Source: Butyricimonas faecihominis
GTDB taxonomy: Bacteria; Bacteroidota; Bacteroidia; Bacteroidales; Marinifilaceae
Direction of reading: 5' to 3'
NCBI RefSeq assembly: GCF_033096445.1
Contig: NZ_AP028155.1
Location: 3,353,880 to 3,417,879, forward strand
DNA length: 64,000 nt
Shown: positions 9,381 to 29,553 of the stretch, piece by piece
How the letters are laid out: each line of letters starts with the position of its first letter
How positions within the stretch are numbered: the stretch's first letter is position 1
Translations under genes and position numbers: made by a program
The notes under the pieces: model-generated
The model's input: the letters and a program-made list of their open reading frames with translations, nothing else
The model's database searches: none
What the model was told of the DNA's origin: nothing

Positions 9381-10220
9381 ATGAAGAACATATTTATAAT
9401 CATTATTTTAACGTTCTGCCCTCTCGCCAATCTACTCGCACAGGACAAGTACGAGGTGTTCAGAAAGGAGATGTCCCTCATCGAGAAACAAGAGAATGAA
9501 TATCGAAAAGTAATTTGGGGTGAAAACGATTTTTCCCAAGGCTACAAAGACAGCATTTATAAAAAACATCAAGTACTGGTGAAAGAAAAGGTCGAGTTTG
9601 CCAAGAACGCCATTCGAGAGAATAGAGATGACGAACGATTCTTGAAAGTGTTGGATATTTATGTACGTAATTTCTTATCCTTAGATGAATTTGAAACCGA
9701 ACTGAAAAGTTTTTCAACCAAGGTACAGAAAACGGAAACCTGTCAACGTTACTTCGAGTTTATCAAGTACGCGAGAATAAATGTCCCCGGCAAACAATGT
9801 ATTGATTTCGAGATGAAAGGCCATAACGGGGAAACCATAAAATTCTCGGATGTGTATAAAAAACACAAGCTTGTTCTTGTTGATTTCTGGGCATCTTGGT
9901 GTGGGGCGTGTCGGGCAACCATGCCCTCCATTAAAAAGATGTATGAAGTCTATCATGAAAAAGACGTCGAAGTAGTCAGCGTGTCGCTAGATGACAATAA
10001 AGAGGCGTGGGAAAAAGCTTATAAAGAAGAAAATATTCCTTGGATAGACGGGAGCAACCTGTTAGGATGGAAAGATCCTGTCGCCCTTTGGTATGCTATC
10101 CGGGGAATACCGCACAAGGTGCTGGTGGACCAGCACGGGATTATCGTCGCTAGTGGCTTTCATCAACTAGGTAGCTTGGAACATGAAATAGATGAATATC
10201 TTCATTCGCATAAAAATTGA
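9381..10220 (+). CDS. TlpA/ResA-like thiol-disulfide oxidoreductase
   Basis: This 279-residue exported protein ends the first SusCD operon. A signal peptide (residues 1-20, ending LLAQ) targets the periplasm. A helical region of about 110 residues precedes the thioredoxin fold, which starts 'GKQCIDFEMKGHNGETIKFS' and holds the active site 'FWASWCGACRATM' with Cys174 and Cys177 (CGAC, against the common CGPC). The cis-proline region reads 'IRGIPHKVLVDQHG'. Such proteins usually reduce disulfides or serve cytochrome c maturation, but none of those partners are here. It starts 18 bases after the upstream lipoprotein, so it is co-transcribed with SusC/SusD. Confidence 0.88.
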   Translation: MKNIFIIIILTFCPLANLLAQDKYEVFRKEMSLIEKQENEYRKVIWGENDFSQGYKDSIYKKHQVLVKEKVEFAKNAIRENRDDERFLKVLDIYVRNFLSLDEFETELKSFSTKVQKTETCQRYFEFIKYARINVPGKQCIDFEMKGHNGETIKFSDVYKKHKLVLVDFWASWCGACRATMPSIKKMYEVYHEKDVEVVSVSLDDNKEAWEKAYKEENIPWIDGSNLLGWKDPVALWYAIRGIPHKVLVDQHGIIVASGFHQLGSLEHEIDEYLHSHKN

Positions 10221-10225
10221 TACTT

Positions 10226-10260
10226 AAAGGAGATATCTCTTTATGAGATACCTCCTTTTT
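10226..10260. terminator. Bidirectional terminator between convergent operons
   Basis: Arms AAAGGAG-a-TATCTC and GAGATA-c-CTCCTTT surround TTTAT and are followed by a T run to 10260. The stem lies six bases after the TlpA stop at 10220 and also faces the convergent minus-strand operon ending at 10304, so it may serve both. Confidence 0.8.
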
Positions 10261-10303
10261 ACTCGTTTAGTTTATATTTCACCTCGATAATACAAACGAT
10301 TCA

Positions 10304-11476
10304 TTATGACATTCTTACTTTCGGAGCCTGCTGTTCTAATTCATTTGCTTCGTCTACCTCTCCCAGCACTCTCAATATACGAGCTTTCACTTTCATGTAT
10401 TCAGACTTGTAATAACCAGAAGGAGCTGATTCCATCAATTTATCCAACCAAGCATTTGCCTCGTTCATGAATGTTTCATTTCCACAAGTCTCAACATGAC
10501 GCAAGAAGTTTCGAATAAAGTCCAACTTATCCTGCGGGGTATAGAAAATACCGTATTGGAGGGAGCGATACATTTCGTCCAACATACCACGAATGTCTCC
10601 TGTTTTCAAATAAGCCGCTGCATAGAGGGATGCCACATACTGGGGCACTTTGGGCAGGGGCTGAGTAAAAAGATAGGCAAGCAATTGGTCATAGCGTTGC
10701 TGATTGAATACACCTTTATCAGGCGTCCACCAAACGAAACTAGATACGGCACTTTTCAAAGTGTAATCCATAAAAATATCAATGGTATCGCGAGAAACAA
10801 TATGAGAGAAACGGTAGCGATTTGCAGCCACTTTTTTCAATATTGGAGAAAGAGGATCTGAAAGATTTCGAATAATAATATCCCAAGTTTCACGAGTATA
10901 AAACTCGGTATCGGAAAGCCCATTGATATACTCCGAAACCACCTTTTTTTGCAACTGTGGACGATATGCCTTGAATAACACATCAATGTACTGTTTTACG
11001 AAAGTACGGTCTCGGTCACCAGCGTCATAGCGCATTTGGAAATCAAGTAAAGTTTGTTCTCCTTTTAATGCTTTCTTACCATTTTGAATAAATTCGGATG
11101 CTTGCTGGTTGCCCACTACACAATGTTTCAACATCCCGTCTTTATCCACATACAACAAAGTGGGAAAAGCGGCAACGCCATATTTCCGAGCCAATTCCGG
11201 ACCTTCACCTTTTTCCATGTCAATTTGAAAACAGATAAAGTTTACGTTATAGAAATCCGCTACACTATCTTGTGTGAAGATATTTTTTGCCAACATTTTA
11301 CAAGGACCACACCAAGAGGTGTAACAGTCGACAAATATCATTTTCTTCTCTTTTTTTGCCATCTTTAGCATTTGTTCCCAATTTCCTTCCCGGAACTCGA
11401 TGGAGCGGTTCTGCGCCCCTATCTCATCAAAGAGACAGAGACTGCAGACCAATAATATATATTGAATTATTTTCAT
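10304..11476 (-). CDS. Exported thioredoxin-fold protein at the end of a SusCD operon
   Basis: This 390-residue protein has a signal peptide (residues 1-21, ending GAQ), then a thioredoxin domain of the DsbD-C/thioredoxin-7 kind: 'KKMIFVDCYTSWCGPCK' with Cys56 and Cys59 (CGPC), and 'YGVAAFPTLLYVDKDG' with the cis-Pro. A helical C-terminal region of about 250 residues follows, which looks like repeat-type helices. It is the last gene of the operon that starts with the ECF sigma factor at 20564; the gap to the PKD-like gene is 12 bases. The domain order (thioredoxin first, helices after) is the reverse of the TlpA-like protein at 9381. The substrate is unknown. Confidence 0.85.
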   Translation of the reverse strand: MKIIQYILLVCSLCLFDEIGAQNRSIEFREGNWEQMLKMAKKEKKMIFVDCYTSWCGPCKMLAKNIFTQDSVADFYNVNFICFQIDMEKGEGPELARKYGVAAFPTLLYVDKDGMLKHCVVGNQQASEFIQNGKKALKGEQTLLDFQMRYDAGDRDRTFVKQYIDVLFKAYRPQLQKKVVSEYINGLSDTEFYTRETWDIIIRNLSDPLSPILKKVAANRYRFSHIVSRDTIDIFMDYTLKSAVSSFVWWTPDKGVFNQQRYDQLLAYLFTQPLPKVPQYVASLYAAAYLKTGDIRGMLDEMYRSLQYGIFYTPQDKLDFIRNFLRHVETCGNETFMNEANAWLDKLMESAPSGYYKSEYMKVKARILRVLGEVDEANELEQQAPKVRMS

Positions 11477-11488
11477 TATTGTGTTGTA

Positions 11489-13057
11489 CTAATTTCGTTC
11501 ACGATATATGACATCTTTCACAATACCGAATCCGTCGTAGGAACGGTAAACAGAGGCATTCTGCGAAGAGGTAACAGGTAATTCCAACATACGGACATGA
11601 CCTTTCAAAGCATTATCACCAATAGTCTCCTTACTACCGACAATTAAACGATATTGCATTTCTCCACTACCTGCCGGTTTCGAATAATCTCCCATTACAA
11701 AAATATTGAACTTCAACATGGTGATTTCCTCTCCTGAAAACTGAGTAACAATTTCGTCACTCTCCATCTTAATGGGCAACAAACGGCATGCTTTTGAATT
11801 GATATTATAGCAATATATTTTGTTATCAACTGCATAATACAAATCGTAGTCTCGCGGATGTACGGCAAAAGCTGTTGCCCGTTCGATCTCAGGAGCATCC
11901 AGTTGATAATAATGCCCACTCACTTGAGCAACGTAATTAGAATTACCAACCTCTATTCCATATATCCAAAGCTTTCCGGCGTTGTCTTTCAATATTGTAT
12001 ATGTTTCCCCTTTACTACCATGCATCGTGTTAGACATATGGACAAAACTTTTACCTGTAGTAAAAGAAAATACTTTTTCCTCTGCCGATGGCTTTTGCAC
12101 CTTATTCATATCACTCGTGACCTGTACAAAACGCTGATTTGTCTCATCATATAAAATTGCAGTACCACCATAAGTGTTGTAATAAATACCAGACATTCCT
12201 ATTGCTGGAGCAACATCAAAATAGTCCGTCTCACCATCAAGTTTATTTAAGCGCATTCCGTATATTGCTCCAGCTATTGTCCCCTTTCCATACACACCAT
12301 CCTTTCCTATGCAAAGGCGACAATCCCCATAAGTTCCAACTATACAAGTAGGAACAAAACCATCGCGCCACTCTGCAAACTCATACATCAAATCATTTTC
12401 ATAATCATAGCTGAAATCATCATCATCCAATTTTGCTTGCGCCTCTTCTGCAAGGAAATAAACAGGACGAGGTGCAGACATTCCTCCTAACAAATGAAGC
12501 GACTTCGGTCCCTTAAATTCTCGCAACGGACTATCAGCCCAAAGGTTTCTGATTATTTTTTCTTCAGGCGTAGAGGTCGAGATCATGTCCAAATGCGAAA
12601 ATCCTTCTGAATCCTCTGACAAAACCAACCAACCTTCATAGGTGGCAGAGGTCACTTGTAAATCAAACCCTTGACGCCAAGTAACTCCCGATGTTTTATC
12701 TTCCACCAGCAAATAAACGGTGTATTTTGCTTCCGGTAATTGCACAAAATATTTCAAGTCTAACCGATTGCTGTCCAAATCAAAGGTTGTCGCACCATCC
12801 ACCGAACCGGATTTCACTACTGCTTGCCATTTAAGCGAATAATTATTTAAATCTTTCCCCTCCAAAGAACCTTCTATCACAGGAGTTACCCGCACGGTAT
12901 CCACCAAACGATAGGCATATTGCATTTCTTCTGGAAAACCGGAAAAGGTCACTTGATTAATTTCCGAGTAATCATAATTCCCCAAATCCTTGTAGCAGCT
13001 GGTGAATGATAGTACACCAAGCACGAACAAGAGAACATATTTCAATTTTTCCATCAT
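11489..13057 (-). CDS. PKD-like family lipoprotein
   Basis: This 522-residue lipoprotein has signal peptide 'LLFVLGVLSFTSCYKDLGNY'. The 'CYKDLGNYDY' start and the two beta-sandwich-like repeats that follow ('YSLKWQAV', 'YTVYLLVEDKTSGVTWRQGF') are typical of the PKD-like family of Bacteroidetes SusCD loci. The C-terminal half ('LHLLGGMSAPRPVYFL', 'AVHPRDYDLYYAVDNKIYCY') looks like a beta-propeller-type region. It lies between a DUF4843-type lipoprotein and the thioredoxin, and has a clear paralogue in the same place at 29555-31000. It is probably surface exposed and ligand binding; no enzymatic motif is seen. Confidence 0.85.
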   Translation of the reverse strand: MMEKLKYVLLFVLGVLSFTSCYKDLGNYDYSEINQVTFSGFPEEMQYAYRLVDTVRVTPVIEGSLEGKDLNNYSLKWQAVVKSGSVDGATTFDLDSNRLDLKYFVQLPEAKYTVYLLVEDKTSGVTWRQGFDLQVTSATYEGWLVLSEDSEGFSHLDMISTSTPEEKIIRNLWADSPLREFKGPKSLHLLGGMSAPRPVYFLAEEAQAKLDDDDFSYDYENDLMYEFAEWRDGFVPTCIVGTYGDCRLCIGKDGVYGKGTIAGAIYGMRLNKLDGETDYFDVAPAIGMSGIYYNTYGGTAILYDETNQRFVQVTSDMNKVQKPSAEEKVFSFTTGKSFVHMSNTMHGSKGETYTILKDNAGKLWIYGIEVGNSNYVAQVSGHYYQLDAPEIERATAFAVHPRDYDLYYAVDNKIYCYNINSKACRLLPIKMESDEIVTQFSGEEITMLKFNIFVMGDYSKPAGSGEMQYRLIVGSKETIGDNALKGHVRMLELPVTSSQNASVYRSYDGFGIVKDVIYRERN

Positions 13058-13069
13058 ATTCCTGTTTAT

Positions 13070-13786
13070 TTATTGATACAAAAAGTCTCCCATTCTCATC
13101 TCCTTGTCACCGTCCATTATCGGGTGCTCATCCAAATAGGCCTTCATGTAATTAGCAATGTAACTTATACGTCCGGATCCCATGTAAGAAGCGGAGAGGA
13201 AAGAAGTACGCGGGATTTCCATGACTGTACAAATAGTCTCGAATTTGAGGGGAGAAAAGGTGCCGAAATAATACACGTTCCAAGTATTGGGGGCTTCTTT
13301 CATCACGTTATTGAACAGAATACGGTGCGTAGTCTTCGAATAGACAACAGCCGAACCGCTAGTAAGCACATCATCCTCATAGTACAAATGGAAATCATTA
13401 TTTTCTACTAATTCTAAAATCACTTCCTTGTCCGATTCATCATTCGGGCGTTTCACCACAACAGGTATCACGCAAGAAGTTTCTCCACTCGGTACTTCAT
13501 AGCGTTCAGCCAAAGTTTCGTAATCTTCTCCCGCCGTGGCATTCTTTTCTACTAACTTCACTTCCACATAACGGCTCACACCTTCTTCCACATCACCCAT
13601 CACGGTAATCTCTACCGATACAGTATCCACATCCTCATCCAAATAGGCAAAGGAAACTACCGTAGAATCTACCTCCATATTTATGTACGCGACATTTTGT
13701 CCAGACCAAGTGTCGATCTTTTGTTCACAACCTACCAAGCTTAACAAGCAAGTCAAGGCCAAACATAATAATATAGTCTTATTCAT
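13070..13786 (-). CDS. DUF4843-type lipoprotein
   Basis: This 238-residue lipoprotein has lipobox 'LLSLVGCEQK'. The Calx-beta-like region 'VSVEITVMGDVEEGVSRYVE', 'NATAGEDYETL' and 'IPVVVKRPNDESDKEVILEL' matches the DUF4843 family found directly after SusD in many Bacteroidetes SusCD clusters. The C-terminus ends 'HPIMDGDKEMRMGDFLYQ'. The spacing is 18 bases from SusD and 12 bases to the PKD-like gene, so one transcript is likely. Its paralogue is at 31015-31737. The function is unknown; an accessory surface subunit of the SusCD complex is an inference from position only. Confidence 0.8.
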   Translation of the reverse strand: MNKTILLCLALTCLLSLVGCEQKIDTWSGQNVAYINMEVDSTVVSFAYLDEDVDTVSVEITVMGDVEEGVSRYVEVKLVEKNATAGEDYETLAERYEVPSGETSCVIPVVVKRPNDESDKEVILELVENNDFHLYYEDDVLTSGSAVVYSKTTHRILFNNVMKEAPNTWNVYYFGTFSPLKFETICTVMEIPRTSFLSASYMGSGRISYIANYMKAYLDEHPIMDGDKEMRMGDFLYQ

Positions 13787-13804
13787 AATACATTACGTTT
13801 TAAG

Positions 13805-15250
13805 TCATCTAAAATCCGTTTCACTTTGCGGCAAAGGCAAAACATATTTAGTATCATTCATTTCCACATTACCACCGGAGAACGCTGAAAGGATACTTGA
13901 CCTATTCATCCGTTTGTAATAAAAAAACAGCTGTCCTTCTCCCCAAAACTCCTTTTGATATTCGTTCAGCAATGTACTCTCCAGCTGGGAAGCGGAGGTC
14001 AACAATTCAACTCCACGATTATCCAGTACAAGATTGATACTTTCCAATGCATCAGTTTCATTTTCGGCTGTCTCAGCAATGATATAATACATCTCTGACA
14101 TACGAATCATCGGTAGTAAATCGGCGTAATAAGCATCGGTTTCCAAATCAGAATATTTATAGAAACATCTATTGGTGTGTCCTGATGCTACTTTCCAATT
14201 AGACTCATAACGCCAATCATTCAACGCTAGCGTACCGAAAATTTTTTCCAAATAGGTAGAAGGAGTAAGCCACATTTGGTCATCTTTCAAATCCGGAGTG
14301 AAATAATCGGTAAAGATTTTATCACGGTTCGGATATTGTAAAGCAAATACCAATTCCGATGAAAATATCCTATCAGGTTTCTGGCCATCGGTCACTTGAG
14401 ATTTTGTGGTAAAGGGGAAATATTGTTCCTGCACTGCTACAACTTCACGAGCTGCTGCCAATGCTTCACTAAACATCTCTGCATACAAATACACTCGTGC
14501 CTGAAGAGCTTTCACCGCATAATAGTTCAAACGAAATGTCCGATAATGCCAGAAATTCTCTCCCTCCGTTGCACCTTCCTCCAATAGCGGCCCTTGTTCA
14601 ATAATGGGATCATTAGCTAGACGCCTTTCAGCTTCCTTTAAATCATCAATAACATATTCCAACACTTCCGAAGCTGGCAACAAATCCGTACCGGACAATA
14701 CAAATTCTTTGTTATAAGGAATGGCACGTCCCTCTTTGTTAGTTTTGTAAACAGGACCAAACAAGCGGAATAAATCGAAATGCAACATGGCACGCAACGC
14801 ATAAGCCTCACCTGTAATCCAATTATATTGATCACCCGTGAACAAATTCTTTTTCTCATCGGCATTTTTTAATAATGTATTCACGTTGGCAATCAGAGCA
14901 TATCCTTTTTCCCAAATACCGGCGAAATTAGATTTCGAGTAATCGGTCGTGTAATCAAATTGTCCCAAACTATTCAAATTCTGCATGGTACCATAATTGG
15001 CAAATTTATAACGCTGCGCCAATACTTCCACAGTACCTACCTGCAGGTCTCCTCCATACAGATTGGAACTACACAATTCGACATACACGCCATTCAACCC
15101 TTGACGAAATCCTTCTTCTGAAGTAAACATTTGTTCCTCCGCCACCTGATCCACCGGTTGTACATCCAACCAATCCGTACATCCAGTAAGCGACCACAAA
15201 GCGATACCCAAAACACCGATTTTAATATATTTATCAAACTTCATAATCAT
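13805..15250 (-). CDS. SusD/RagB-family lipoprotein
   Basis: This 481-residue protein has lipobox 'WSLTGCTDWLDVQP', and 'CTDWLDVQPVDQVAEEQMF' with 'EEGFRQGLNGVYVEL' is typical of SusD. Further family signs are 'GEAYALRAMLHFDLFRLFGP' (about 150) and 'LLPMIRMSEMYYIIAETAEN' near the C-terminus. It starts six bases after the SusC stop. The ORF opens ATGATTATGAAG; the second ATG (15244) has a better placed GGA upstream and may be the true start. It forms the lid of the SusC pore encoded at 15257-18604. The SusD at 31739-33166 is its positional and sequence paralogue. Confidence 0.92.
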   Translation of the reverse strand: MIMKFDKYIKIGVLGIALWSLTGCTDWLDVQPVDQVAEEQMFTSEEGFRQGLNGVYVELCSSNLYGGDLQVGTVEVLAQRYKFANYGTMQNLNSLGQFDYTTDYSKSNFAGIWEKGYALIANVNTLLKNADEKKNLFTGDQYNWITGEAYALRAMLHFDLFRLFGPVYKTNKEGRAIPYNKEFVLSGTDLLPASEVLEYVIDDLKEAERRLANDPIIEQGPLLEEGATEGENFWHYRTFRLNYYAVKALQARVYLYAEMFSEALAAAREVVAVQEQYFPFTTKSQVTDGQKPDRIFSSELVFALQYPNRDKIFTDYFTPDLKDDQMWLTPSTYLEKIFGTLALNDWRYESNWKVASGHTNRCFYKYSDLETDAYYADLLPMIRMSEMYYIIAETAENETDALESINLVLDNRGVELLTSASQLESTLLNEYQKEFWGEGQLFFYYKRMNRSSILSAFSGGNVEMNDTKYVLPLPQSETDFR

Positions 15251-15256
15251 CCGATT

Positions 15257-18200
15257 TTAAAAAGTTACAGATACAGATGCCGATACCATACGCGCAAAAG
15301 GATATTCGATACCTCGTTCCTCTTTCACACTTGATATCCGGAACACATCATTCATATTCACCTGCAAACGCAAGGCTGAAAAACCGGCTTTTTCAATCCA
15401 TTCTTTTGGGAAATCATAACCGGCTGAAAAAGACTCCCCTTTCAGGAAATTAGAACGCTGCACAAAACGCGAAGACATTTGTGTTGTCTCGGTTAGAGAG
15501 ATTCCCTTGAACCGGGCGTGTTGTCCGGGCTTTTCCCAACGGTTATACAATGCACGCTTATCTTGGTTGTATTTCAAGTTTTCTTCGGAAATATTTTCCA
15601 CTTTAGTATACAATGCCTCGTTGAAGACATCACCTCCCAAACTATAGCGTAGATGTGCAGAGAAGGAAAATCCTTTATAATACAGCGTAGTACCAATAAC
15701 TCCTTCCAAATCAGGTTCTGTATCTCCTACTTGGACCTCATCTTTTGTCTCATACGTATAAGTATATGTACCATCTTTTTTCAAAAATACTTCTTTACCA
15801 CTCGCTGGGTCTATTCCCAAAGAGCGTACTGCCCACAATGCAGTAGGACTACCGCCATCGTAATAACGCACTAAGCTTGTATTTTCATTTTGCGCATTAA
15901 ACTGACTCAAGCTATTGCCAATATTCCGGTATTCAGACTTTTGGTGACGGAAATTCAAACTCAGATTCCAGTTGATACCTTCCTCCGGGCGGTAAATCGG
16001 CGAATATTTAACCGTAGCACTGTACCCCGTGTTCCATTGCTCTCCGATATTTGTAGCTATCGTTTTTGTACCAACCGAAGAAGGCAAACCGATTACAGCC
16101 AACAATGGGTCGGTTCTTTTCTGATAATAGTCGAAGTTTATATTGAAACGATTCCTCAACAAAGCAATATCAGCACCCACATTCATGTCTAATGTTTTTT
16201 GCCATTTCAAGTCGGGATTACCAAATGCATCTACCAATAAACTTGTTCCAAAGTTATTAGAACTCCAATTATTAAAAGAATACGTGGTATACGATTGATA
16301 AGCATCAAAATTTTGATTACCAGGATTACCGATTGATGCCCTCACTTTCAATAAGGTCATCCATTCAGCATTTTGCAAGAAGCTTTCGTTGTGAATATTC
16401 CATGCCACCCCTACCGACCACGTTTCGGTATAACGTTTATTACTCCCAAAAACCGAAGCTCCATCTAAACGAATATTTGCATCAAACAAATAGCGGTTGT
16501 CGAAAGCATACCCCATATTCAAATACCAACTGTTGGAGCGGGTAACCGTTTCCGTGTAGTCCGGTTTACCGCCATTCGGGAAACTGGTGGCAAAAGACGG
16601 ACGGGTAAAATCACCTACAGGAAAGCCCACCGCCTCGAAAGCCTCTGTCTTCAACTCAGACGAACGGAAGTTCGCCCCCAATACAGCATTTAATTGATGT
16701 ACGTCATTGAACAATTTACCATAAGTCACAGTTAACTCCCCATCATAGATCCAAGTATCGTAATCCGTCGATTTATAACTCCCCCGTTGGGTTTGAGCCA
16801 CACCATCAAAAGAAGTATGCTCAGGGGATAGAAAATACTCAGCCTTTTCCGATTTTTTCTCCAAACTGATACGCCCTCGTACCATCACTTCTTCCACTGG
16901 ACGGTATTCTGCATTAAATTTATTGATAAAGCTCATACCTTTTTGACGATCATAACTGTTCAGACTTGCATTGTACAATGGATTCTCAACCGTATAGTGC
17001 TGTCGATTAACAGTATAATATTCTTCTAAATAACGGGTAACATTGCCATTTTCGTCATATTTTTCAAAATAAGGATTTGCTTTTGCATACTCTGAAAAAT
17101 TTACCGTCGGATTTTCTTTTTTCGTATAATCAAATGACATCTTGTTGAAAAAACGGAATTTTCCTTTTCGATAATTCAACTCAAAATTCATACCGATAAC
17201 GTCATTTCCCGAATTTTTCATCACTCCGTCTGTTCCATTATAGGTAACACCCAAACCATAACGTACTGCATTGTCACCTCCTTCTGCATAAATATTGTGT
17301 TTATGCACCAATGCCACTCGTAACGGTTCACTTAACCAATAAGTATTAACTCCTCTTGCTACATTCGCACGATGAAGATTATACAAACTATCCAGAAATA
17401 ATTGTTCTTGGGCATCATATGTATAATCCGATTTGTAAAAACCAGCTTTCTGTTCAAATTCCAATTTCTCACGTGCATTCATCAAATTATAATCCGACAA
17501 ATCGGGAATAGACAAAGAAAAATTACCATTGTATGACACTCGAAATGTTCCTGGTTCAGGCTGTTTAGTCTCAATCACAACAACGCCATTTGCAGCTTTC
17601 GAACCATACAAAGCCGTGGACGCAGCATCTTTCAATATTGTTACAGATTGCACACGGTCCATATTCAAATTTACCACCGTTTGCAAATCAGTCTCGAAAC
17701 CATCAAGGATAAACAATGGCTGATTCGGATCAGTATCATATTGTTCTTTCAATCCTACAACACTACTTTTACCACGAATTTCGATATCCGGTAAGCGATT
17801 AGGGTCAGAACCATAATCATTATTCTCCATAATCACGAAAGAAGGATCTAGTGTCTTCAAACTCTGAATCAAATTTTGTGTTCCAACCATCTTCAACTCT
17901 TCTTTCTTGAATGTAGCAGTGGAACCCGTAAAACTCTCTTTTTTACGCTGAAAAATACCAGTCACGACCACCTCATCCATCTCACTTACCTCATCTTCCA
18001 GCGTGATGTTAAGTTCTGATTGACCAGCCCATTTCACCTCCTTCGTTTTCATTCCCACAAACGAAAATATCAGAGTAACAGTATCCTGTTTTAGAATATT
18101 CATGGAATAATTTCCATCCATATCGGTCGCAGTCCCTACACTCGTCCCTTTAATCATAACTGTCACCCCAGGTAAAACGCCACCTTTTGAATCTTTCACC

Positions 18201-18604
18201 ACTCCTTTAAGAACCACGCTTTCCTTCTTCTCCGGTTCATTATTAACCTTCTTGACAGAGATCAGGATTGTCTGATCTTCAATCTCATATTGTAAAGATG
18301 TATTTCGTAAACACAACTTCAACACATCTTCTACCGAGGCTTCACTTACTTTCAAACTCACATTTTTCACCCCTTGTACATCCTGTTTATTATACAAAAT
18401 ATAATACCCAGATTGTGCATGTAACTCTTTTAACACCTGTTCCAAGCTTACATCTTGAACCTCCATCTTAATTTGTTTCTGACTATACGTCGGTATTGCA
18501 AACGCAAACACCGGCAACAACACCATAAGCATAACAAGTTTCATCACTAGCATTTTTTTTCCACGCCATCGCCATGGATGGAGAATTAATTCATCTTTTT
18601 TCAT
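15257..18604 (-). CDS. SusC/RagA-family TonB-linked outer-membrane protein with STN domain
   Basis: This 1115-residue protein has, in order, a signal peptide (about 18-42, ending IPTYSQ), an STN (secretin/TonB N-terminal) domain at about 45-115 ('IKMEVQDVSLEQVLKELHAQ'), a carboxypeptidase-regulatory-like domain ('LKGVVKDSKGGVLPGVTVMI'), a plug with 'MDRVQSVTILKDAASTALYG', and the barrel ending 'FARMVSASVSVTF'. In this protein class the STN domain contacts the FecR anti-sigma factor; here fecR and an ECF sigma gene lie directly upstream, completing the signalling set. The barrel partner is the SusD at 13805. The Carboxypept-reg domain is very like that of the SusC at 3739 ('SFVGMKTKEVKW' is shared). 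The ligand is unknown. Confidence 0.95.
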   Translation of the reverse strand: MKKDELILHPWRWRGKKMLVMKLVMLMVLLPVFAFAIPTYSQKQIKMEVQDVSLEQVLKELHAQSGYYILYNKQDVQGVKNVSLKVSEASVEDVLKLCLRNTSLQYEIEDQTILISVKKVNNEPEKKESVVLKGVVKDSKGGVLPGVTVMIKGTSVGTATDMDGNYSMNILKQDTVTLIFSFVGMKTKEVKWAGQSELNITLEDEVSEMDEVVVTGIFQRKKESFTGSTATFKKEELKMVGTQNLIQSLKTLDPSFVIMENNDYGSDPNRLPDIEIRGKSSVVGLKEQYDTDPNQPLFILDGFETDLQTVVNLNMDRVQSVTILKDAASTALYGSKAANGVVVIETKQPEPGTFRVSYNGNFSLSIPDLSDYNLMNAREKLEFEQKAGFYKSDYTYDAQEQLFLDSLYNLHRANVARGVNTYWLSEPLRVALVHKHNIYAEGGDNAVRYGLGVTYNGTDGVMKNSGNDVIGMNFELNYRKGKFRFFNKMSFDYTKKENPTVNFSEYAKANPYFEKYDENGNVTRYLEEYYTVNRQHYTVENPLYNASLNSYDRQKGMSFINKFNAEYRPVEEVMVRGRISLEKKSEKAEYFLSPEHTSFDGVAQTQRGSYKSTDYDTWIYDGELTVTYGKLFNDVHQLNAVLGANFRSSELKTEAFEAVGFPVGDFTRPSFATSFPNGGKPDYTETVTRSNSWYLNMGYAFDNRYLFDANIRLDGASVFGSNKRYTETWSVGVAWNIHNESFLQNAEWMTLLKVRASIGNPGNQNFDAYQSYTTYSFNNWSSNNFGTSLLVDAFGNPDLKWQKTLDMNVGADIALLRNRFNINFDYYQKRTDPLLAVIGLPSSVGTKTIATNIGEQWNTGYSATVKYSPIYRPEEGINWNLSLNFRHQKSEYRNIGNSLSQFNAQNENTSLVRYYDGGSPTALWAVRSLGIDPASGKEVFLKKDGTYTYTYETKDEVQVGDTEPDLEGVIGTTLYYKGFSFSAHLRYSLGGDVFNEALYTKVENISEENLKYNQDKRALYNRWEKPGQHARFKGISLTETTQMSSRFVQRSNFLKGESFSAGYDFPKEWIEKAGFSALRLQVNMNDVFRISSVKEERGIEYPFARMVSASVSVTF

Positions 18605-18680
18605 ACATTTGTTTAATTTTTACTTAATGCTCGCATCAAATGCCAATCCGAGGCGAGTTTTAAAATTACAATAGTCCGGT

Positions 18681-18705
18681 AAGTCCTTAAAAACTTAGCG
18701 GACTT
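18681..18705 (-). promoter_or_regulatory. Stem-loop at the fecR stop codon / susC leader
   Basis: AAGTCC (18681-18686) pairs with GGACTT (18700-18705). The fecR TAA (18697-18695) lies in the loop. Stem-loops at the same fecR-susC junction also occur at 36661-36689 and 51004-51028. The stem is short; its meaning comes mainly from the repeat at three loci. Confidence 0.4.
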
Positions 18706-19870
18706 CTTTTATTACAATCTTTTTACCTTCTATCAAATAATCAATATTTTGAGTTTTTTTCAACATACCCAATATCTTAGAAATATTCTCGTATTTTCGA
18801 ATTACCCCATAAAATATTTTTTCTTTCAATTCCGGTGTTTCAATAATAATATCCACATCATACCAACGGGCCAATTTCTTCATTATAGTAACCAAATCTT
18901 CCTCGTCAAAAATGAAAAGTTTATCTTTCCATCCGATATAATTCTCAACATTTACTTCCCGCATAGATATCTTTCCAATATTCTTATCCATTTCCGCCTG
19001 ATGCCCCGGTGTCAACAAAACAGTTTTATCAGATTGATCCAACACTACCCGTACACTACCCGAGACCAAAGTTGTCTGCACTTTAGCTTCATCCCCATAA
19101 GCCATCACATTAAATGAAGTTCCTAAAACACATACACTCTGTCCTCCCCCATGTACTTCAAAAGGCTTGTCAGAAGGAGAAACTTCAAAATAAGCCTCTC
19201 CCTCAAGATACACCTCTCGTTTTTCCCCGATAAAACTAACCGGATATCGTAAACGGGTATCAGAATTTAGCCATACCCGAGAACCATCGGATAAGATCAG
19301 TTGATATTCGCCTCCCCGGGGAATAATAATGGTGTTATATTCCAGAGCGGATGGATTACCCGAGTGGCCTTGTTTATAGGCAAGACGATTGGAATCATTC
19401 GTTACTACAGTTCCTTCCAATTGTAATTGCCCTAGATTTTTCCCTAGACCTAGTTCCAGTTTCCGCCCGTCAGCCATCTCTAGCACGGCACATTCTTTAC
19501 CAGGAATAATATCTGTAGCTAACGGAGATATTTCTTCTTTCTCCATCATGAATAAAAATACACTTCCGGCAATAAGTGGTATTAATAAAATTGCAGCAAT
19601 TTGTTTTACCCGCCGAATAAGACGAATACGCTTTCCCTGTTTACCTACTGAAAACATTACTCGTTCTTTCAATGCTTCTAATGAATAATTTTCATATTCT
19701 TGCAACCGCCCCATCAAATAATTCCGCTCTACCAGCCGTTCATAAAATAGTCGGTGCTCGTCACTCTCATGGATCCATTCCTCCAACATCTTTTCCTCCT
19801 CTTGCTGAATAGTACCATTCAACCGAGCTACAACCCATGAGGCTATTTTCAAATTATTATCATCATGCAT
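18695..19870 (-). CDS. FecR-family anti-sigma factor
   Basis: This 391-residue single-pass inner-membrane regulator has a cytoplasmic N-terminal part of about 85 residues ('EEKMLEEWIHESDEHRLFYE') that should bind the ECF sigma factor. A membrane segment follows at about 90-107 ('IAAILLIPLIAGSVFLFMM'), then a periplasmic FecR domain ('YNTIIIPRGGEYQLILSDGS', 'RVWLNSDTRLRYPVSF', 'YLEGEAYFEV', 'VLGTSFNVMAY'), and a C-terminal DUF4974-like domain ('KLARWYDVDI', 'FYGVIRKYENISKIL'). It lies between the sigma gene and the STN-SusC gene. In studied cases, ligand-loaded SusC acts through STN on FecR to release the sigma. Confidence 0.93.
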   Translation of the reverse strand: MHDDNNLKIASWVVARLNGTIQQEEEKMLEEWIHESDEHRLFYERLVERNYLMGRLQEYENYSLEALKERVMFSVGKQGKRIRLIRRVKQIAAILLIPLIAGSVFLFMMEKEEISPLATDIIPGKECAVLEMADGRKLELGLGKNLGQLQLEGTVVTNDSNRLAYKQGHSGNPSALEYNTIIIPRGGEYQLILSDGSRVWLNSDTRLRYPVSFIGEKREVYLEGEAYFEVSPSDKPFEVHGGGQSVCVLGTSFNVMAYGDEAKVQTTLVSGSVRVVLDQSDKTVLLTPGHQAEMDKNIGKISMREVNVENYIGWKDKLFIFDEEDLVTIMKKLARWYDVDIIIETPELKEKIFYGVIRKYENISKILGMLKKTQNIDYLIEGKKIVIKEVR

Positions 19871-19955
19871 ACCCTGTCATTTTTACATTTCACACAAAGA
19901 ACGACCACACTTCTCAAAAAGATGACAAGAAGCAGATTTTTTTTCAAAAAAAAAT

Positions 19956-20564
19956 TCAATTAAATAAATCCACCATTCCCAAAAGTACCAAAAGAATACC
20001 CATGCTAAAGCGTTTTTTTAATACAGCCATAGCTCTCTGTTTCTGAGTCCGAACCGTATTGATCGATATAGATAACGAATCTGCTATTTCCTGATTACTT
20101 AATCCTTCCAATCCTAATCGGAATACACGTCTACATTCTGGAGGTAATTCGTCAATTGCCCGATAAATTTCCCCGAGCACCTCTTCTTCAATCATTTTCT
20201 CATCCAAAGAATCCTCACTTAACTCTTGTATCAACGCCGCTTCATGTTTATGAACGACCTGCTCATGCTTTAATAAATCCAAACATTTATTACGAGCCGT
20301 CTGGTAAAGAAAAACCCGAATCGGAAGTAAGGACATAAAATCTTGACGTCTCTCCCACAGGGTTACGAAACTTTCCTGCACAATATCTTCAGAGAAAGTA
20401 CTATTCTTAAGAATTGAATTACAATAAAAATAAAGAGATTTCCCATATGTATCCAAGAAAAAAGCAAAAGCATACTCATCACCATCCTGTAATCGCCTTA
20501 CAAGGTAGTCCACATTATGCTTAAACTTTCTATATCGCATCTCCTTATCCATCAAACACTCCAT
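19956..20564 (-). CDS. ECF RNA polymerase sigma factor
   Basis: This 202-residue protein has region 2 near 'RLQDGDEYAFAFFLDTYG', with 'SEDIVQESFVTLWERRQDF' as the -10 recognition helix area. Region 4 follows with 'AIDELPPECRRVFRLGLEGL' and the helix-turn-helix 'LSNQEIADSLSISINTVRTQ'. It is the first gene of the operon and should recruit polymerase to the promoter of the SusC gene downstream when FecR releases it. An internal ATG at 20552 (MDKEMRY) is an alternative start. CATCTTTG at 20590-20583, one base off TAnnTTTG, is the likely -7 box. Confidence 0.93.
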   Translation of the reverse strand: MECLMDKEMRYRKFKHNVDYLVRRLQDGDEYAFAFFLDTYGKSLYFYCNSILKNSTFSEDIVQESFVTLWERRQDFMSLLPIRVFLYQTARNKCLDLLKHEQVVHKHEAALIQELSEDSLDEKMIEEEVLGEIYRAIDELPPECRRVFRLGLEGLSNQEIADSLSISINTVRTQKQRAMAVLKKRFSMGILLVLLGMVDLFN

Positions 20565-20744: not shown

Positions 20745-21683
20745 TTAACAAGTCGGCTTTCTCTTTATCGGGAGTTTCGGGAAAAGTTTCCTAAAACGTA
20801 CTAAATAAGTCGTAACATTACTTCCCGCAACGATAATGGTCACGGCAAAAACAATCATCATAATACCACATCCCACTCTCACGGTTAAAGGTTCCCCGAA
20901 AACCGTCACCCCGAAAAATACCGCTGTCAAAGGCTCCAAAGCCCCTAAAATAGCGGTTGGGGTCGAACCGATATACTGGATGGCCTGAGTGGTACAAAGA
21001 AATGATATAGCAGTCGGGAACACGGCCAAGGCAACCAAATTACCCCACAGATACCACGTGTCTACCACACGCAGACTGGCCCCAAAATCAACACGAACCA
21101 AAAACAGAGACAACCCGAAAACTAAAACATAGAACGTCAGCTTCAGTGTCGCAATCTCTCGCAACAAGGGTCTATTCACAGCGACAATGTAAATGGCATA
21201 TGACAAGGCCGAGGCGATAACGAGAATCACTCCCGTCAGACTCAACACCGAACCATCCTCCCCCTTGTAAAGCAAGGCAATACCACCCAACGCCAGCATG
21301 ATACACAAAATTGTTTGTAACGTCAGTTTCTCTTTAAAGAGAAAGGCCATGATTAAGGCTACCATGATCGGGTAAACGAACAACAAGGTCGATGCAATAC
21401 CGGCTGCCATGTAATTATAACTCTGAAACAAGGTAAGTGACGAGAGTGCCACCAGCAATCCCATGATAATTAACGGAAGTATTTCTTTTCGCTTCAATTT
21501 GAAATCTCTTCCCCGCAACTTAATCATCGCACCCAACACCGGGATAGCAAACAAGTACCTGAAAAAAAGAACTGAATCCGGGTTCATCCCCGCCTCGTAC
21601 AGGGGAAGGGCAAACAAGGGATTCATCCCGTAAGTTGCTGCCGCAATGACCCCTAACACGTATCCTTTAGCTTTTACATTCAT
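20745..21683 (-). CDS. EamA/DMT-family membrane transporter
   Basis: This 312-residue inner-membrane protein has about ten hydrophobic helices arranged as two EamA repeats: 'YVLGVIAAATYGMNPLFALP' begins the first and 'LTGVILVIASALSYAIYIVA' the second. Each ends in a helix of the kind 'ALEPLTAVFFGVTVFGEPLT'. EamA proteins export amino acids, metabolites or other small molecules; the substrate cannot be told here. A basic tail ('KLFPKLPIKRKPTC') follows the last helix. It is a single gene, transcribed divergently from the beta-galactosidase. A TATCTTTG -7 box (21720-21713) lies 30 bases before the start. Confidence 0.9.
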   Translation of the reverse strand: MNVKAKGYVLGVIAAATYGMNPLFALPLYEAGMNPDSVLFFRYLFAIPVLGAMIKLRGRDFKLKRKEILPLIIMGLLVALSSLTLFQSYNYMAAGIASTLLFVYPIMVALIMAFLFKEKLTLQTILCIMLALGGIALLYKGEDGSVLSLTGVILVIASALSYAIYIVAVNRPLLREIATLKLTFYVLVFGLSLFLVRVDFGASLRVVDTWYLWGNLVALAVFPTAISFLCTTQAIQYIGSTPTAILGALEPLTAVFFGVTVFGEPLTVRVGCGIMMIVFAVTIIVAGSNVTTYLVRFRKLFPKLPIKRKPTC

Positions 21684-21836: not shown

Positions 21837-25094
<3,258 letters not shown>

Positions 25095-25134: not shown

Positions 25135-25138
25135 CATC

Positions 25139-26182: not shown

Positions 26183-26213
26183 CAAAAGTATGAATATTTT
26201 ACTTGAATATCAA
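26183..26213 (-). promoter_or_regulatory. Promoter of the MSTRA-type gene
   Basis: On the minus strand TTG (26213-26211), 20 bases, TACTTTTG (26190-26183). The ATG at 26153 lies 29 bases downstream. Confidence 0.55.
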
Positions 26214-26778
26214 TTTATATTAACGTGAGTTCGATATAAGAACAGATTTATATCCCTGAATAATACGAGTATAGCATTACACGAGAGAGAAAACCGCCGT
26301 GAGAACACGCTCCAATGTTTCAATGTAGCGCCTCCTCCCCCGTCCAAATACGTACATTTAGCTTGGAAATCTTGATGTTTCAGACACGAATAACGAGATC
26401 TGTCAAAATGCAATTCCTAGGGAAATACCGGGGAAGAACCGTAGAAGATAGGGATCACCTTCGGTTCACTCTCGGTACACCTTCGTTACACTCTCGCTCA
26501 CAAGCAACCAAAGACCGAGAATGAACCGGAAGTGATCCAAGAGTATCCCGGAAGTACCCTCTTCCATCCTTAGGAAAACTAAAAGATAAAAGTTGATGAA
26601 ACCTGTCACTTGCTAACCTGTAACTCGCCGAAGGCGAATCCCGACTGGGATCTAAATGCTCGCCCGATTATCGCCACCATTTTAACAGATAGAAAACAAA
26701 AATAACATACTCGAATATCCCGTCAACCGGACCAATAACGAGCCTATTCATGCTCAAGAATAATATTTCGGGCCACTA
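26214..26778. other. Non-coding stretch with a long imperfect inverted repeat
   Basis: No credible gene is seen on either strand. The main structure is an inverted repeat with arms 26452-26476 and 26514-26538 (22 of 25 pair; outer end GGATCAC/GTGATCC, inner end CTCGGT/ACCGAG) and a 37-base loop. The loop begins with a rough tandem copy of the left arm (ACACCTTCGTTACACTCTCGC). Further on, CTCGCCGAAGGCGA near 26627 is a small palindrome. This may be the remains of a small mobile or repeat element. Confidence 0.5.
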
Positions 26779-26802
26779 TATCCCCGGCAAAAGCCGGGGA
26801 TA
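26779..26802 (-). terminator. Hairpin at the end of the second redox SusCD operon
   Basis: TATCCCCGGC (26779-26788) pairs perfectly with GCCGGGGATA (26793-26802) around AAAA. It lies 16 bases after the stop of the last TlpA-like gene (26819). The stem is very GC-rich; no T run follows on the minus strand. Confidence 0.65.
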
Positions 26803-26818
26803 AGGGATACATCACCTA

Positions 26819-28189
26819 TTATTTAATATGCTGATTAATATACTCTATAATCTTGGAAGAAGAGGGTCTTGGAGCATCCAAGGAAATAATTCTTCCTTTC
26901 TTATCGAAGAATAAGAAACGGGGAATTCCATCAATATCATACTCTTGACATAGGGTCGATTGGAAATTATCCGGGCAAATAAATTGTTTCCATTCCGGTT
27001 TATCTGCTGCCAGTTTCTTTTTCCATTTCTTTTGATTCTCGTCCAACGAGATACTCAGAAATTCAATCTTCTTATTCTTGGCATAATGTTTCACCAATTT
27101 CTCCATATAAGGAATTTCCATGCAACATGGTCCGCACCAAGTAGCCCACACGTCAATATAAACAGCTTTCCCCTTAAAATCGGACAAATGACATTTTTTC
27201 CCATTAACATCTGTCATCTCAAAATCAATAGCCGGCGCACCGGGCATCATGTTTATATAGTGATCATACACTTTCTGCATCTCGGAGTGATCTACCGTGT
27301 CAGTGGAAACCCGTTTATAAACCTCGAACACCTCGGTCATATCTTTTGGAGCTTGTTTTAAATAATAATCAACAAGACTATTGGCCATGTCATTAATGAT
27401 TTCCTGATTCGTGAATATTTGAGTCAAGGCATTCAAATGATACACAACTCTATTTTGTTCTTTTCCTGCCGGATGACGTTGAAGATACCAGCGAACATAT
27501 CTCTCGGCCATCTCCATATTATCCGGATCATTCCGGTCGAATGCCTCTACCCAACGAACAAAATCAGCGTCTTCCCGGGGTTTTGACCAAGCATGACGGA
27601 ATAAATATACCGGAATAAATTGATCAATCACATCCATCATCATTCTTTTAAAAGCCAAGCTTTTTATCTTTACCAAATTAGACTTTACTCTATCAACATC
27701 TTCCAGATAAGCCTCTCTGTATTCGGCAAAACTCATCGTATCCAGCATCTCAAAAGGCCAAGCATCGTATTGCCAACGGTCGAATTCTTTCATAAAACAA
27801 AAACAATCTGCATTATCCCCAACATAATTTACTTCCGGGACATACGCATCATCCTCTTCATTCTTTTCTTTATGAAATGAAATTGTCAGATCAGCCTTCA
27901 TCCCATTTTCAAGGAAAAGAGCCACAAAACAAGCATACTTCTCAAACGATAAAAAAGCTCGAATCGGCTTTTCCACATCCACGTTATAAACAAATTCTCC
28001 AACATCACTAACTTGAAGAGTATCGATCATTTTTACCCCTCCTCCCACATAATAAATCACTGTCACGTTCCCACCAACAAAATCATAGATTCTCCCTCGA
28101 ATATAACCAGAATCTTGATTTTTTGCCATACAATCAATTCCCACTAATAAAGAGACAACTAATATCACAAATAATTTCAAGTTTTTCAT
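26819..28189 (-). CDS. TlpA-like thioredoxin-fold protein (second of a pair)
   Basis: This 456-residue exported protein has a signal peptide ending about 'GIDCMA' (possibly a lipobox: Cys at 20). An N-terminal beta-sandwich (DUF4369-like, 'GYIRGRIYDFVGGNVTVIYY') is followed by a helical middle and a C-terminal thioredoxin domain starting 'GAPAIDFEMTDVNGKKCHLS', with active site 'VWATWCGPCCMEI' (Cys352, Cys355, plus Cys356) and 'YDIDGIPRFLFFDKKG'. The start at 28189 is chosen because its ATG shares one base with the stop of the preceding gene (TGATG), a sign of translational coupling; the longer ORF would overlap it by 43 bases. A structural paralogue of the gene before it. Confidence 0.85.
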   Translation of the reverse strand: MKNLKLFVILVVSLLVGIDCMAKNQDSGYIRGRIYDFVGGNVTVIYYVGGGVKMIDTLQVSDVGEFVYNVDVEKPIRAFLSFEKYACFVALFLENGMKADLTISFHKEKNEEDDAYVPEVNYVGDNADCFCFMKEFDRWQYDAWPFEMLDTMSFAEYREAYLEDVDRVKSNLVKIKSLAFKRMMMDVIDQFIPVYLFRHAWSKPREDADFVRWVEAFDRNDPDNMEMAERYVRWYLQRHPAGKEQNRVVYHLNALTQIFTNQEIINDMANSLVDYYLKQAPKDMTEVFEVYKRVSTDTVDHSEMQKVYDHYINMMPGAPAIDFEMTDVNGKKCHLSDFKGKAVYIDVWATWCGPCCMEIPYMEKLVKHYAKNKKIEFLSISLDENQKKWKKKLAADKPEWKQFICPDNFQSTLCQEYDIDGIPRFLFFDKKGRIISLDAPRPSSSKIIEYINQHIK

Positions 28190-29553
28190 CACTGTATTTG
28201 ATTTAAATATTTTTCCAATAATGTAATACACTCCGGTTCAGAAGGACGAACAAATGAATACGCAATAAAACGCCCCTCCCGGTCTAGCAACATGAAATGA
28301 GGTATACCTTCAATTCGATACTCTTTTCCTAAAAAATCATTCGTTTTTTTGTCCACAATATACTGTTTCCAAGTCGGTTTCTCCTTTTCTAAAAATTTTT
28401 TCCATACATTCACGTTATTATCAATTGCTATACTAATAATTTCCACTTGATCATCTTTTTTAAAATGCTCTTTCAATTTCGCCATATAAGGTAGCTCATC
28501 ACGGCAAGGAGCGCACCAAGTTGCCCAAACATCTAACAACAAAAATTTTCCCCTAAAATCCGATAATTTATATTTTTTCCCGTCTTCCCCGGTTAACTCA
28601 AAATCTGGGGCTACTTTTCCTCTCATCAAATTCCCATTCACTCGGATATATTCGTTATACTCTCCACGTGCTGTTTCCTTTAATATTTCATCCGTGCATA
28701 TGGAATTATAGTACTCGTAGGCATCCTGTAAACTTAACACGCCGGGCCTGTTCAAATAGCTTAGAAATCTGGAAGTAACATATCGATTTTTCATCTCTTG
28801 GTCAGTCACCAGCGATCCGATAATTTCTAAACTTTTTTTCGGAAAATCATTCCAATCCAAGTCTGTCACTTGACTCATACTCCACCCAATCATATATTCC
28901 AAAAGTTCTTCGTTACAACTCAACGAATCGTTCCAATTTATGGATTTTACAAAATCCAAAAAATCCACATCTTTTACACTATCTCCTACATGAGACAGGT
29001 ACCATGAAAACCGCTGATTTTGAAGATTTAGATAGGCTTTTTTTGCCAATTGCTCACGATTTTTTTTATTCGTAATCTGATTTCCTAAAATTCTTAATTC
29101 TTTTTCTTTTTCATCGACTTTCAACTTGAAATCTTTGAATTTAAGAGCAGATATCTCGGGAGAATACCATTCCTGTGAATTTTCAATAGATCGTAAAGCA
29201 AACAGATATTTATTCTCTTTTTCACAATCTCCAGAAAAACTAATCTCCATCGATTGTTGAGGTAGTAATGTCAATTCTATATTCACACGACTTCCTTTTG
29301 CTAAAAATACCGGTATCCAAGGATTATAACCTTTCACGGACAATTCATAAATCACTCCATTCTGTGTTTCCATAGGAATGTACTCAAATTCCCCTCTCTC
29401 ATTCACTTTCAGAGTGTCTCGTTTTAAACTACCTTGCACGGCAATCCGTATCAAAGCTCCATTATCATTAACCACTCCTTTCAGAATCGTCTGATGGCTT
29501 GATTGACAAGCCATACAAACGATTAAAAATGCTAAAATACACAACCGATTCAT
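28189..29553 (-). CDS. TlpA-like thioredoxin-fold lipoprotein (first of a pair)
   Basis: This 454-residue protein has lipobox 'LIVCMACQSS' (Cys at 16), so it is likely membrane-anchored in the periplasm or outer membrane. A DUF4369-like N-terminal domain ('LKGVVNDNGALIRIAVQGSL', about 25-110), a helical middle, then the thioredoxin domain with 'VWATWCAPCRDEL' (Cys347, Cys350; CAPC) and 'YRIEGIPHFMLLDREG' follow. Start 29553 is chosen for the lipobox spacing and because it follows the PKD-like stop by one base (TAAGATG). The N-terminal extension in the longer ORF has no signal features. It overlaps the next TlpA gene by one base. The two genes together replace the single thioredoxin of the paralogous operon at 10304. 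Confidence 0.87.
   Translation of the reverse strand: MNRLCILAFLIVCMACQSSHQTILKGVVNDNGALIRIAVQGSLKRDTLKVNERGEFEYIPMETQNGVIYELSVKGYNPWIPVFLAKGSRVNIELTLLPQQSMEISFSGDCEKENKYLFALRSIENSQEWYSPEISALKFKDFKLKVDEKEKELRILGNQITNKKNREQLAKKAYLNLQNQRFSWYLSHVGDSVKDVDFLDFVKSINWNDSLSCNEELLEYMIGWSMSQVTDLDWNDFPKKSLEIIGSLVTDQEMKNRYVTSRFLSYLNRPGVLSLQDAYEYYNSICTDEILKETARGEYNEYIRVNGNLMRGKVAPDFELTGEDGKKYKLSDFRGKFLLLDVWATWCAPCRDELPYMAKLKEHFKKDDQVEIISIAIDNNVNVWKKFLEKEKPTWKQYIVDKKTNDFLGKEYRIEGIPHFMLLDREGRFIAYSFVRPSEPECITLLEKYLNQIQ

Follow-up and report, generated by a model that had tools for sequence, protein, structure and literature searches.

Exported thioredoxins terminate SusC/SusD import cassettes in Butyricimonas faecihominis and recur in related cassettes, possibly as a reductive step in peptide import

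We analysed a stretch of 64,000 nucleotides of the Butyricimonas faecihominis genome (contig NZ_AP028155.1, positions 3,353,880 to 3,417,879 of the forward strand), referred to below as the window, for its SusC/SusD-type import clusters, in which a SusC-like TonB-dependent transporter is encoded next to a SusD-like lipoprotein. An exported thioredoxin-fold protein terminated four of the five such clusters touched by the window, and in three of these it carried the CxxC active site. Across the host genome (4.85 Mb, a single contig) the coupling of SusD to a downstream thioredoxin is far above chance. We tentatively read these cassettes, with a confidence somewhat short of even, as SusC/D systems for the import of peptides or glycopeptides with a built-in periplasmic reductive step, in which the imported ligand would carry disulfides and the thioredoxin would act on that ligand.

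Gene content of the window was assigned using Pfam scans and inspection of the translations. Adjacent susC and susD homologues were found in clusters A, B, C and D, and in cluster E when it was read beyond the window. Operon A (3739-10220, +) encodes SusC, SusD, a lipoprotein of 338 amino acids (aa) and a TlpA-like protein with the active site CGAC. Operon B (10304-20564, -) encodes an extracytoplasmic function (ECF) sigma factor, FecR, SusC, SusD, a DUF4843 protein, a PKD_2 protein and a protein of 390 aa whose N-terminal domain is a thioredoxin (CGPC). The same cassette makes up operon C (26819-38494, -), where it is followed by two TlpA-like proteins (CAPC and CGPC) that are tandem paralogues with 28% identity. 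Cluster E (59766-64000, -) encodes a DUF4959-like protein, a DUF4998 lipoprotein and a terminal DUF4369-TlpA protein, with SusD, SusC and a 387-aa gene coinciding with a FecR_C match upstream, just past the window edge. The fifth cluster, D (44430-52866), has ECF and FecR genes and no thioredoxin. All five thioredoxin proteins of the window matched a thioredoxin-fold family above its cut-off, and the E protein was not counted as an active oxidoreductase because its active site reads DPSC. No hydrolase or carbohydrate-active enzyme family was matched in operons A, B and C or the in-window part of E by the Pfam scans. The original prediction, made from the window sequence, had called these thioredoxin-terminated operons as well as a cluster at 59.8 kb with a Cys-less first site, and both calls were borne out.

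Coupling within the genome was measured against 1000 randomisations in which the thioredoxin positions were rotated. Profile searches returned 105 SusD matches, all to PF07980 and thus without the SusD of operon C (PF14322 only), together with 89 Thioredoxin_8 and 118 Thioredoxin matches that merged into 129 thioredoxin-fold domains. For 59 of the 105 SusD matches a thioredoxin-fold domain followed downstream on the same strand at a distance of at most 6 kb; the rotations averaged 6.0 such matches and never exceeded 18. Counted in reverse, 86 of the 129 thioredoxin-fold domains followed a SusD within 6 kb (rotations: mean 8.0, maximum 32). The result held with Thioredoxin_8 matches alone (42/105; mean 4.7, maximum 15), at a distance of 4 kb (54/105; mean 4.4, maximum 15) and at 8 kb (61/105; mean 7.7, maximum 20). 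Coupling was independent of DUF4843, as 20 of 35 SusD genes with DUF4843 directly downstream had a thioredoxin within 8 kb compared with 41 of 70 without DUF4843. The 42 DUF4843 matches of the genome split into 24 with a thioredoxin no more than 6 kb away and 18 without. In other SusD regions the SusC-SusD pair was accompanied by one accessory protein of about 300-390 aa, by two small ones, or by the thioredoxin directly. The original prediction had staked itself on co-occurrence above chance, and the claim gained strength both here and from the recurrence in other genomes described next.

A scan of species genomes with a PKD_2 alignment was used to follow the cassette outside B. faecihominis. 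The best 80 of 296 relatives were kept, corresponding to 79 loci, of which 77 had a callable PKD_2 gene (L063 and L096 had none; labels L002-L143 denote loci fetched in this analysis). With a thioredoxin defined by blastp E < 1e-5 to a cassette thioredoxin and adjacency by a 300-base rule, the gene next after PKD_2 was a thioredoxin in 62 of these 77 loci, which were ranked by similarity to the window PKD_2 and are therefore no random sample. The nearest PKD_2 relatives among the best 80 were in Odoribacter and Bacteroides metagenome-assembled genomes (MAGs), and the 62 included Bacteroides, Phocaeicola, Prevotella, Butyricimonas, Odoribacter, Dysgonomonas, Flavobacterium, Aestuariibaculum and Parachryseolinea, with genera taken from record titles. 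Of the remaining 15 loci, 12 had no further gene under the 300-base rule and three had another gene first, which was a contig-end piece in two and a Met-zincin in one (L113). At least six of the 15 (L047, L051, L060, L072, L075 and L084) were near a contig end, where the absence of a thioredoxin is uncertain. The slot after PKD_2 was filled by a TlpA-type protein with CxxC in the C-terminal part in 31 loci, by a protein with CxxC near the N terminus in 27 and by one with both in two; the other two slot genes were short, without CxxC and apparently split, each followed by another thioredoxin-matching piece. An exported CxxC thioredoxin is thus a conserved feature of the slot after PKD_2, and its filling by differing exported thioredoxin forms suggests that thiol chemistry itself is selected.

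Active site and predicted compartment were assessed in 65 thioredoxin-fold proteins, drawn from the window and three sets of fetched regions in this genome rather than from all 129 domains. CxxC was kept in 60 of them. Export signals were called with our own hydrophobicity heuristic, not SignalP, and 45 proteins were signal peptidase I (SPI)-like, 20 lipobox-like and none neither. Just two of the 20 lipobox-like thioredoxins carried two acidic residues at +2 to +6. In this phylum acidic residues after the lipobox Cys direct lipoproteins to the surface. As the thioredoxins mostly have SPI-like signals and few have the surface-type acidic signal, they are probably periplasmic and would meet a ligand after its import.

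The accessory lipoproteins gave a different picture by the same heuristic. A lipobox was found in 42/42 DUF4843 and 41/41 PKD_2 proteins examined from the genome (39/41 PKD_2 proteins under a stricter rule), and at least two acidic residues were present at +2 to +6 in 39/42 and 35/41, respectively. We considered whether a thioredoxin in the cassette goes along with more Cys in the accessory lipoproteins, and rejected this idea. Mature Cys averaged 1.33 with and 1.72 without a thioredoxin for DUF4843 (Mann-Whitney p = 0.24) and 5.22 with and 4.67 without for PKD_2 (p = 0.52). The structure model of the operon C PKD_2 protein was strand-rich (mean predicted local distance difference test score, pLDDT, 93.9), and its best solved match in a fold search was BT1487 (4r5o; template modelling score 0.41 to the query, root-mean-square deviation 13.3), with many beta-propellers also listed; we read the model as a putative sandwich domain plus a propeller. 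The operon C DUF4843 model (mean pLDDT 91.8) resembled a Calx-beta-like sandwich with C-terminal helices in a fold search. Phmmer searches for solved relatives returned zero matches for DUF4843 and just 2xdh (E 0.91) for PKD_2, for which a profile search gave nothing below E 0.06. As modelled, both folds would fit a surface binding role and do not name a ligand.

A thioredoxin and a peptidase or glycosidase share one operon or one chain in some sister cassettes, and do not in the window operons. In this genome, thioredoxin cassettes were found with an S9 peptidase (L002), a GH29 glycosidase (L020), an amidohydrolase (L015), M16 peptidases (L130, L131), a TldD-like protein (L122) and a DsbD N-terminal-domain protein (L011), and in both L141 and L142 one operon combines an S8 subtilase with two retropepsin-like proteases and thioredoxins. 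Between TlpA and the accessory proteins, L122 and L125 encode a further protein of about 1100 aa, of which the L122 copy matches PmbA/TldD domains. Cassettes without a thioredoxin carried two S9 peptidases (L035), Met-zincins (L039), M28 with glycosidases (L029), a GH29 relative (L030) and M16 (L143). Twenty downstream proteins from other genomes were scanned singly and included seven peptidases (an Asp protease and M16 in L052, M3 in L059, S46 in L064, S9 in L067, an Asp protease in L106 and a Met-zincin in L113), three glycosidases (GH92 in L093 and L100, GH29 in L119) and two DsbD or DsbD_N proteins (L052, L044). Joint alignment and scanning covered 72 of 89 non-thioredoxin downstream proteins, the other 17 (from a following operon, housekeeping-looking or locus-end pieces) being excluded by eye, and gave 11 Asp_protease_2, 10 M16, 9 DsbD_TM, 10 DsbD_N, 7 S9 and 3 GH92 among the families listed (25 of 53). 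Ten Flavobacterium loci encode PKD_2, thioredoxin, Asp protease, TlpA and M16 in this order, followed in nine by DsbD, as read from a single scan of L052 and, for the rest, from gene lengths and family counts. The tenth (L062) is cut at the locus end and has two extra open frames before M16; L116 has one extra.

The link between peptidases and cassettes was also measured by rotation. Of 27 M16, S9 and Asp_protease_2 genes in this genome, nine were near both SusD and a thioredoxin (rotation mean 1.56, with 0 of 2000 rotations reaching nine), where the distances of 12 kb and 5 kb were picked after examples had been seen, so that the rotation counts are descriptive. The gene numbers came from hand merging of 15 M16_C matches into nine genes and 13 S9 matches into 11, one S9 below cut-off being kept. 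For Asp_protease_2, six of seven genes (one of the seven below the curated cut-off) were near both, a count reached by 0 of 2000 rotations. Two of the nine peptidase genes are themselves fusions with thioredoxin. In L140 a CGPC thioredoxin with 32% identity to the operon B thioredoxin across 192 residues is joined to a DPP-IV/S9 peptidase (1067 aa from the first start codon) behind two Met-zincins. In L124, within an E-like cluster, a CGPC thioredoxin is joined to a retropepsin-like protease (783 aa), and in L100, from a Bacteroides MAG, GH92 is joined to TlpA (1199 aa). These three fusions, each read from a single assembly, suggest a common substrate for the two parts. The original prediction had placed thioredoxins in these loci in place of degradative enzymes. 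That statement stood for the window operons and for most fetched DUF4843 thioredoxin cassettes of this genome, and failed for the sister cassettes with S8, S9, S46, M3, M16 and aspartyl peptidases and with GH92 or GH29.

The direction of the redox step was assessed from the DsbD content of the genome, which has one full DsbD (N-terminal domain, membrane domain and C-terminal thioredoxin) and one further DsbD_TM match below cut-off. Reduction is favoured because of this one full DsbD, the lack of a VKOR match in the genome and the DsbD inside the Flavobacterium operon, and electrons would accordingly flow in the reducing direction. The mechanism we propose is that SusC/D, driven by TonB, and the surface lipoproteins (DUF4843, PKD_2 and others) would bind and import peptides, glycopeptides and protein fragments, some of them disulfide-linked. 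The cassette thioredoxin, of the N-terminal or TlpA type, would be held reduced by DsbD and would break ligand disulfides in the periplasm, after which periplasmic peptidases and glycosidases would finish the substrate. These hydrolases would be supplied from elsewhere in the genome for the window operons and from the same operon or chain in some sister cassettes.

Several observations weigh against this proposal. The window operons themselves lack a hydrolase. Most thioredoxin cassettes of this genome are without an annotated hydrolase, and in the fetched set of 40 DUF4843 cassettes from this genome, in which some downstream proteins were left unannotated, hydrolases are not tied to thioredoxin, being annotated in 3 of 22 cassettes with a thioredoxin (L002, L015 and L020) compared with 4 of 18 without (L029, L030, L035 and L039). 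Thioredoxin-free loci also contain peptidases (Met-zincins in L039 and L113, M16 in L143). Of the 20 singly scanned proteins, eight (L054, L066, two in L098, L077, L079, L103 and L112) were neither hydrolases nor DsbD proteins, and some of these were plainly housekeeping. The M16 and DsbD_TM counts represent one operon across the ten Flavobacterium loci, as do, by gene length, all Asp proteases but one. Taken alone, neither M16 (2/9; count reached by 222 of 2000 rotations) nor S9 (1/11; 931 of 2000) was significantly near SusD and thioredoxin. CxxC was lost in 5 of the 65 thioredoxins, including that of cluster E; four of the five (E, L123_5, L125_6 and L126_10) are in clusters resembling E by gene order and size, and the fifth is L134_5. 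The search that found no VKOR match in the genome did not take in DsbB, so an oxidising pathway may yet exist.

One alternative is that the thioredoxins mature or repair the exported proteins of their own cassette, keeping the Cys of SusC, SusD, lipoproteins and hydrolases reduced or isomerising wrong disulfides during passage through the periplasm. Exported proteins do cross the periplasm, and PKD_2 averages 5.2 or 4.7 mature Cys with or without a thioredoxin. We consider this explanation unlikely, as the Cys number of DUF4843 and PKD_2, the two families that the comparison covered, does not differ with the presence of a thioredoxin (p = 0.24 and 0.52), the operon B SusC has one Cys in total and the operon C FecR has zero, and fusions to peptidases and GH92 are not readily explained in this way. 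The same Cys counts, with surface-type signals on the lipoproteins and mostly not on the thioredoxins, leave unsupported the redox control of the surface lipoproteins, which was one half of the interpretation in the original prediction. The other half, import of a disulfide ligand such as Cys-rich peptides or glycoproteins, gains indirect support from the peptidases, GH92/GH29 and DsbD of sister cassettes and from the thioredoxin-hydrolase fusions.

Alternatively, the cassette thioredoxins could belong to a general envelope thiol defence, a large TlpA family acting against oxygen or oxidised thiols that spread by residing in SusC/D operons. TlpA proteins occur commonly in the phylum, the 129 thioredoxin-fold domains of this 4.85-Mb genome would suit such a family, and the thioredoxin cassettes of this genome mostly lack an annotated hydrolase. 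This too appears rather unlikely given that two thirds of the domains (86/129) lie at most 6 kb downstream of SusD, that many cassettes have their own thioredoxin copy at the identical place behind PKD_2, and that thioredoxins are fused with hydrolases. Uptake of a metal, heme or siderophore, in which the thioredoxin would reduce the metal complex or make a CxxCH site ready for heme binding, is very unlikely. Ferric citrate uptake follows the same ECF/FecR/TonB logic. A TlpA gene also appears in an iron stimulon table of P. intermedia (PMC10434189); the passage does not assign the gene to a SusC/D operon. No heme, siderophore or metal partner was found among the annotated proteins of sister cassettes, several of which have peptidases or glycosidases; a metal complex was among the ligands suggested in the original prediction. 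Redox sensing, in which the thioredoxin would form or break a disulfide and so control signalling from SusC via FecR to the ECF sigma factor, draws on the ECF and FecR genes of operons B and C and the STN domain of their SusC and is highly improbable, since with zero Cys in the operon C FecR and one in the operon B SusC no disulfide is possible within those parts, and operon A has a TlpA protein, yet its SusC has no STN domain and no FecR_C match lay nearby in the genome-wide profile search.

Our preferred reading, import coupled to periplasmic reduction, was compared with known systems. The cassettes share the SusC/SusD pair, lipoproteins and, in B and C, ECF/FecR-type regulation with polysaccharide utilization loci, and differ in that the window operons have no carbohydrate-active enzyme and end in an exported thioredoxin. 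RagAB-type importers of Porphyromonas import peptides. Over residues 144-1028 the operon C SusC matches RagA (PDB 6sli, E 9.3e-58); this match does not indicate the ligand class because an unspecified SusC homologue, 8aa4, scores better (E 9.6e-70). We know of no thioredoxin behind RagAB. Like TlpA, ResA and DsbE oxidoreductases, the window proteins have a thioredoxin fold, predicted export and, in A, B and both proteins of C though not in E, CxxC; unlike them, they have long N-terminal extensions and sit behind a SusC/D importer. The DsbD reductive pathway is represented by the one full DsbD of this genome and by the DsbD within the Flavobacterium operon, with the difference that a single DsbD would probably need to serve many cassette thioredoxins. 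Searches of an open-access library, with PMC10434189, PMC12596196, PMC12632263, PMC11204068, PMC4936053 and PMC11658791 among the papers listed, turned up no account of SusC/D-thioredoxin coupling as a system; most subscription papers and all preprints lie outside this coverage. As far as our searches reach, the parts are ordinary and their recurrent combination is undescribed within the open-access literature covered.

Individual genes of the window were placed as follows. Operon A (+) comprises the SusC-like transporter (3739..6993; Plug, CarbopepD_reg_2), the SusD-like lipoprotein (6995..8410; SusD-like_3, SusD_RagB), the accessory lipoprotein (8347..9363; without a Pfam family, 338 aa when begun at the first start codon) and the exported TlpA-like protein (9381..10220; Thioredoxin_8 and AhpC-TSA, with CGAC in the translation). 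Operon B (-) begins with the ECF sigma factor (19956..20564) and continues with the FecR-type anti-sigma factor (18695..19870), SusC with its STN domain (15257..18604), SusD (13805..15250), all four from the Pfam scan, the DUF4843 lipoprotein (13070..13786; PF16132), the PKD_2 lipoprotein (11489..13057; PF16407, lipobox) and the exported thioredoxin (10304..11476; Thioredoxin, Thioredoxin_7), which has CGPC near the N terminus and a long C-terminal extension and whose best PDB match is 2kuc, a putative disulphide-isomerase. Operon C (-), likewise from Pfam scans, comprises the ECF sigma factor (37949..38494), FecR (36694..37866; zero Cys in the translation), SusC with an STN domain (33179..36634), SusD (31739..33166), the DUF4843 (31015..31788) and PKD_2 (29555..31024) lipoproteins, both also modelled, and the first (28189..29628; CAPC motif; PDB relatives 2lja, 2lrn, 1jfu and 1st9) and second (26819..28231; CGPC motif) TlpA-like proteins. 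In cluster E (-) the DUF4959-like protein (62704..63936; 463 aa if read past the window) scored 22.2 bits against a cut-off of 32.9, the DUF4998 lipoprotein (61042..62679) had a weak F5_F8_type_C match below its cut-off, and the DUF4369-TlpA protein (59766..60893; Pfam scan and motif) has lost the first Cys of its active site. The SusD proteins in cluster E and in those of L123, L125 and L126 are about 645 aa long, and TlpA lost CxxC several times there.

Other observations concern neighbouring genes and the wider genome. A GH2 beta-galactosidase gene (21864-25094, +) lies between operons B and C on the strand opposite to both; an EamA transporter gene (20745-21683, -) lies between the same cassettes on their own strand. 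Cluster D is followed downstream on the same strand by an ABC transporter (38646-44240, -), made up of an ATPase and two membrane proteins with ABC_transp_aux, which presumably resembles GldA/GldF/GldG; comparable ATPase and membrane genes directly follow PKD_2 in L025, L032 and L033 and lie farther downstream in L029. Nucleotidyltransferase and HepT-like genes (446-1133, +) adjoin tRNA-Lys (348-422) and look like a toxin-antitoxin pair. Genome-wide, the profile searches also gave 42 DUF4843, 38 PKD_2, 118 FecR_C and 128 Plug matches, the last two a very large ECF/FecR/TonB-dependent repertoire for 4.85 Mb; about 20 of the FecR_C matches fall inside SusC-length frames, and 16 of the 128 Plug frames, shorter than 1000 aa, were dropped from the SusC list only. 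Two SusD matches read through in-frame stops (C1:884823-885578, TAG and TAA; C1:4591473-4591970, TGA and TAG), indicating that some cassettes may be decaying.

SusC/D systems are mostly taken for glycan importers. It is possible, and we put this forward with greater reserve than the reading of the cassettes themselves, that Bacteroidota as a phylum have reductive protein-utilisation loci, in which SusC/D would be combined with a dedicated periplasmic disulfide reductase that is fed by DsbD and works with, or is fused to, peptidases or deglycosylating enzymes. If true, these would be the thiol counterpart of the polysaccharide utilization locus, and Bacteroidota could use disulfide-stabilised proteins such as mucin and plant or host defence peptides. 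With 59 of the 105 SusD domains counted in this genome lying at most 6 kb upstream of a thioredoxin, proteins or glycoproteins that contain disulfides may be the substrates of many SusC/D pairs. Disulfide links occur in mucin, in immunoglobulins and in many storage and defence proteins of plants, and a dedicated reductive step would bear on the access of gut Bacteroidota to protein nitrogen and mucin backbones. A thioredoxin trapping mutant would then offer a simple handle on the ligands of many orphan importers.

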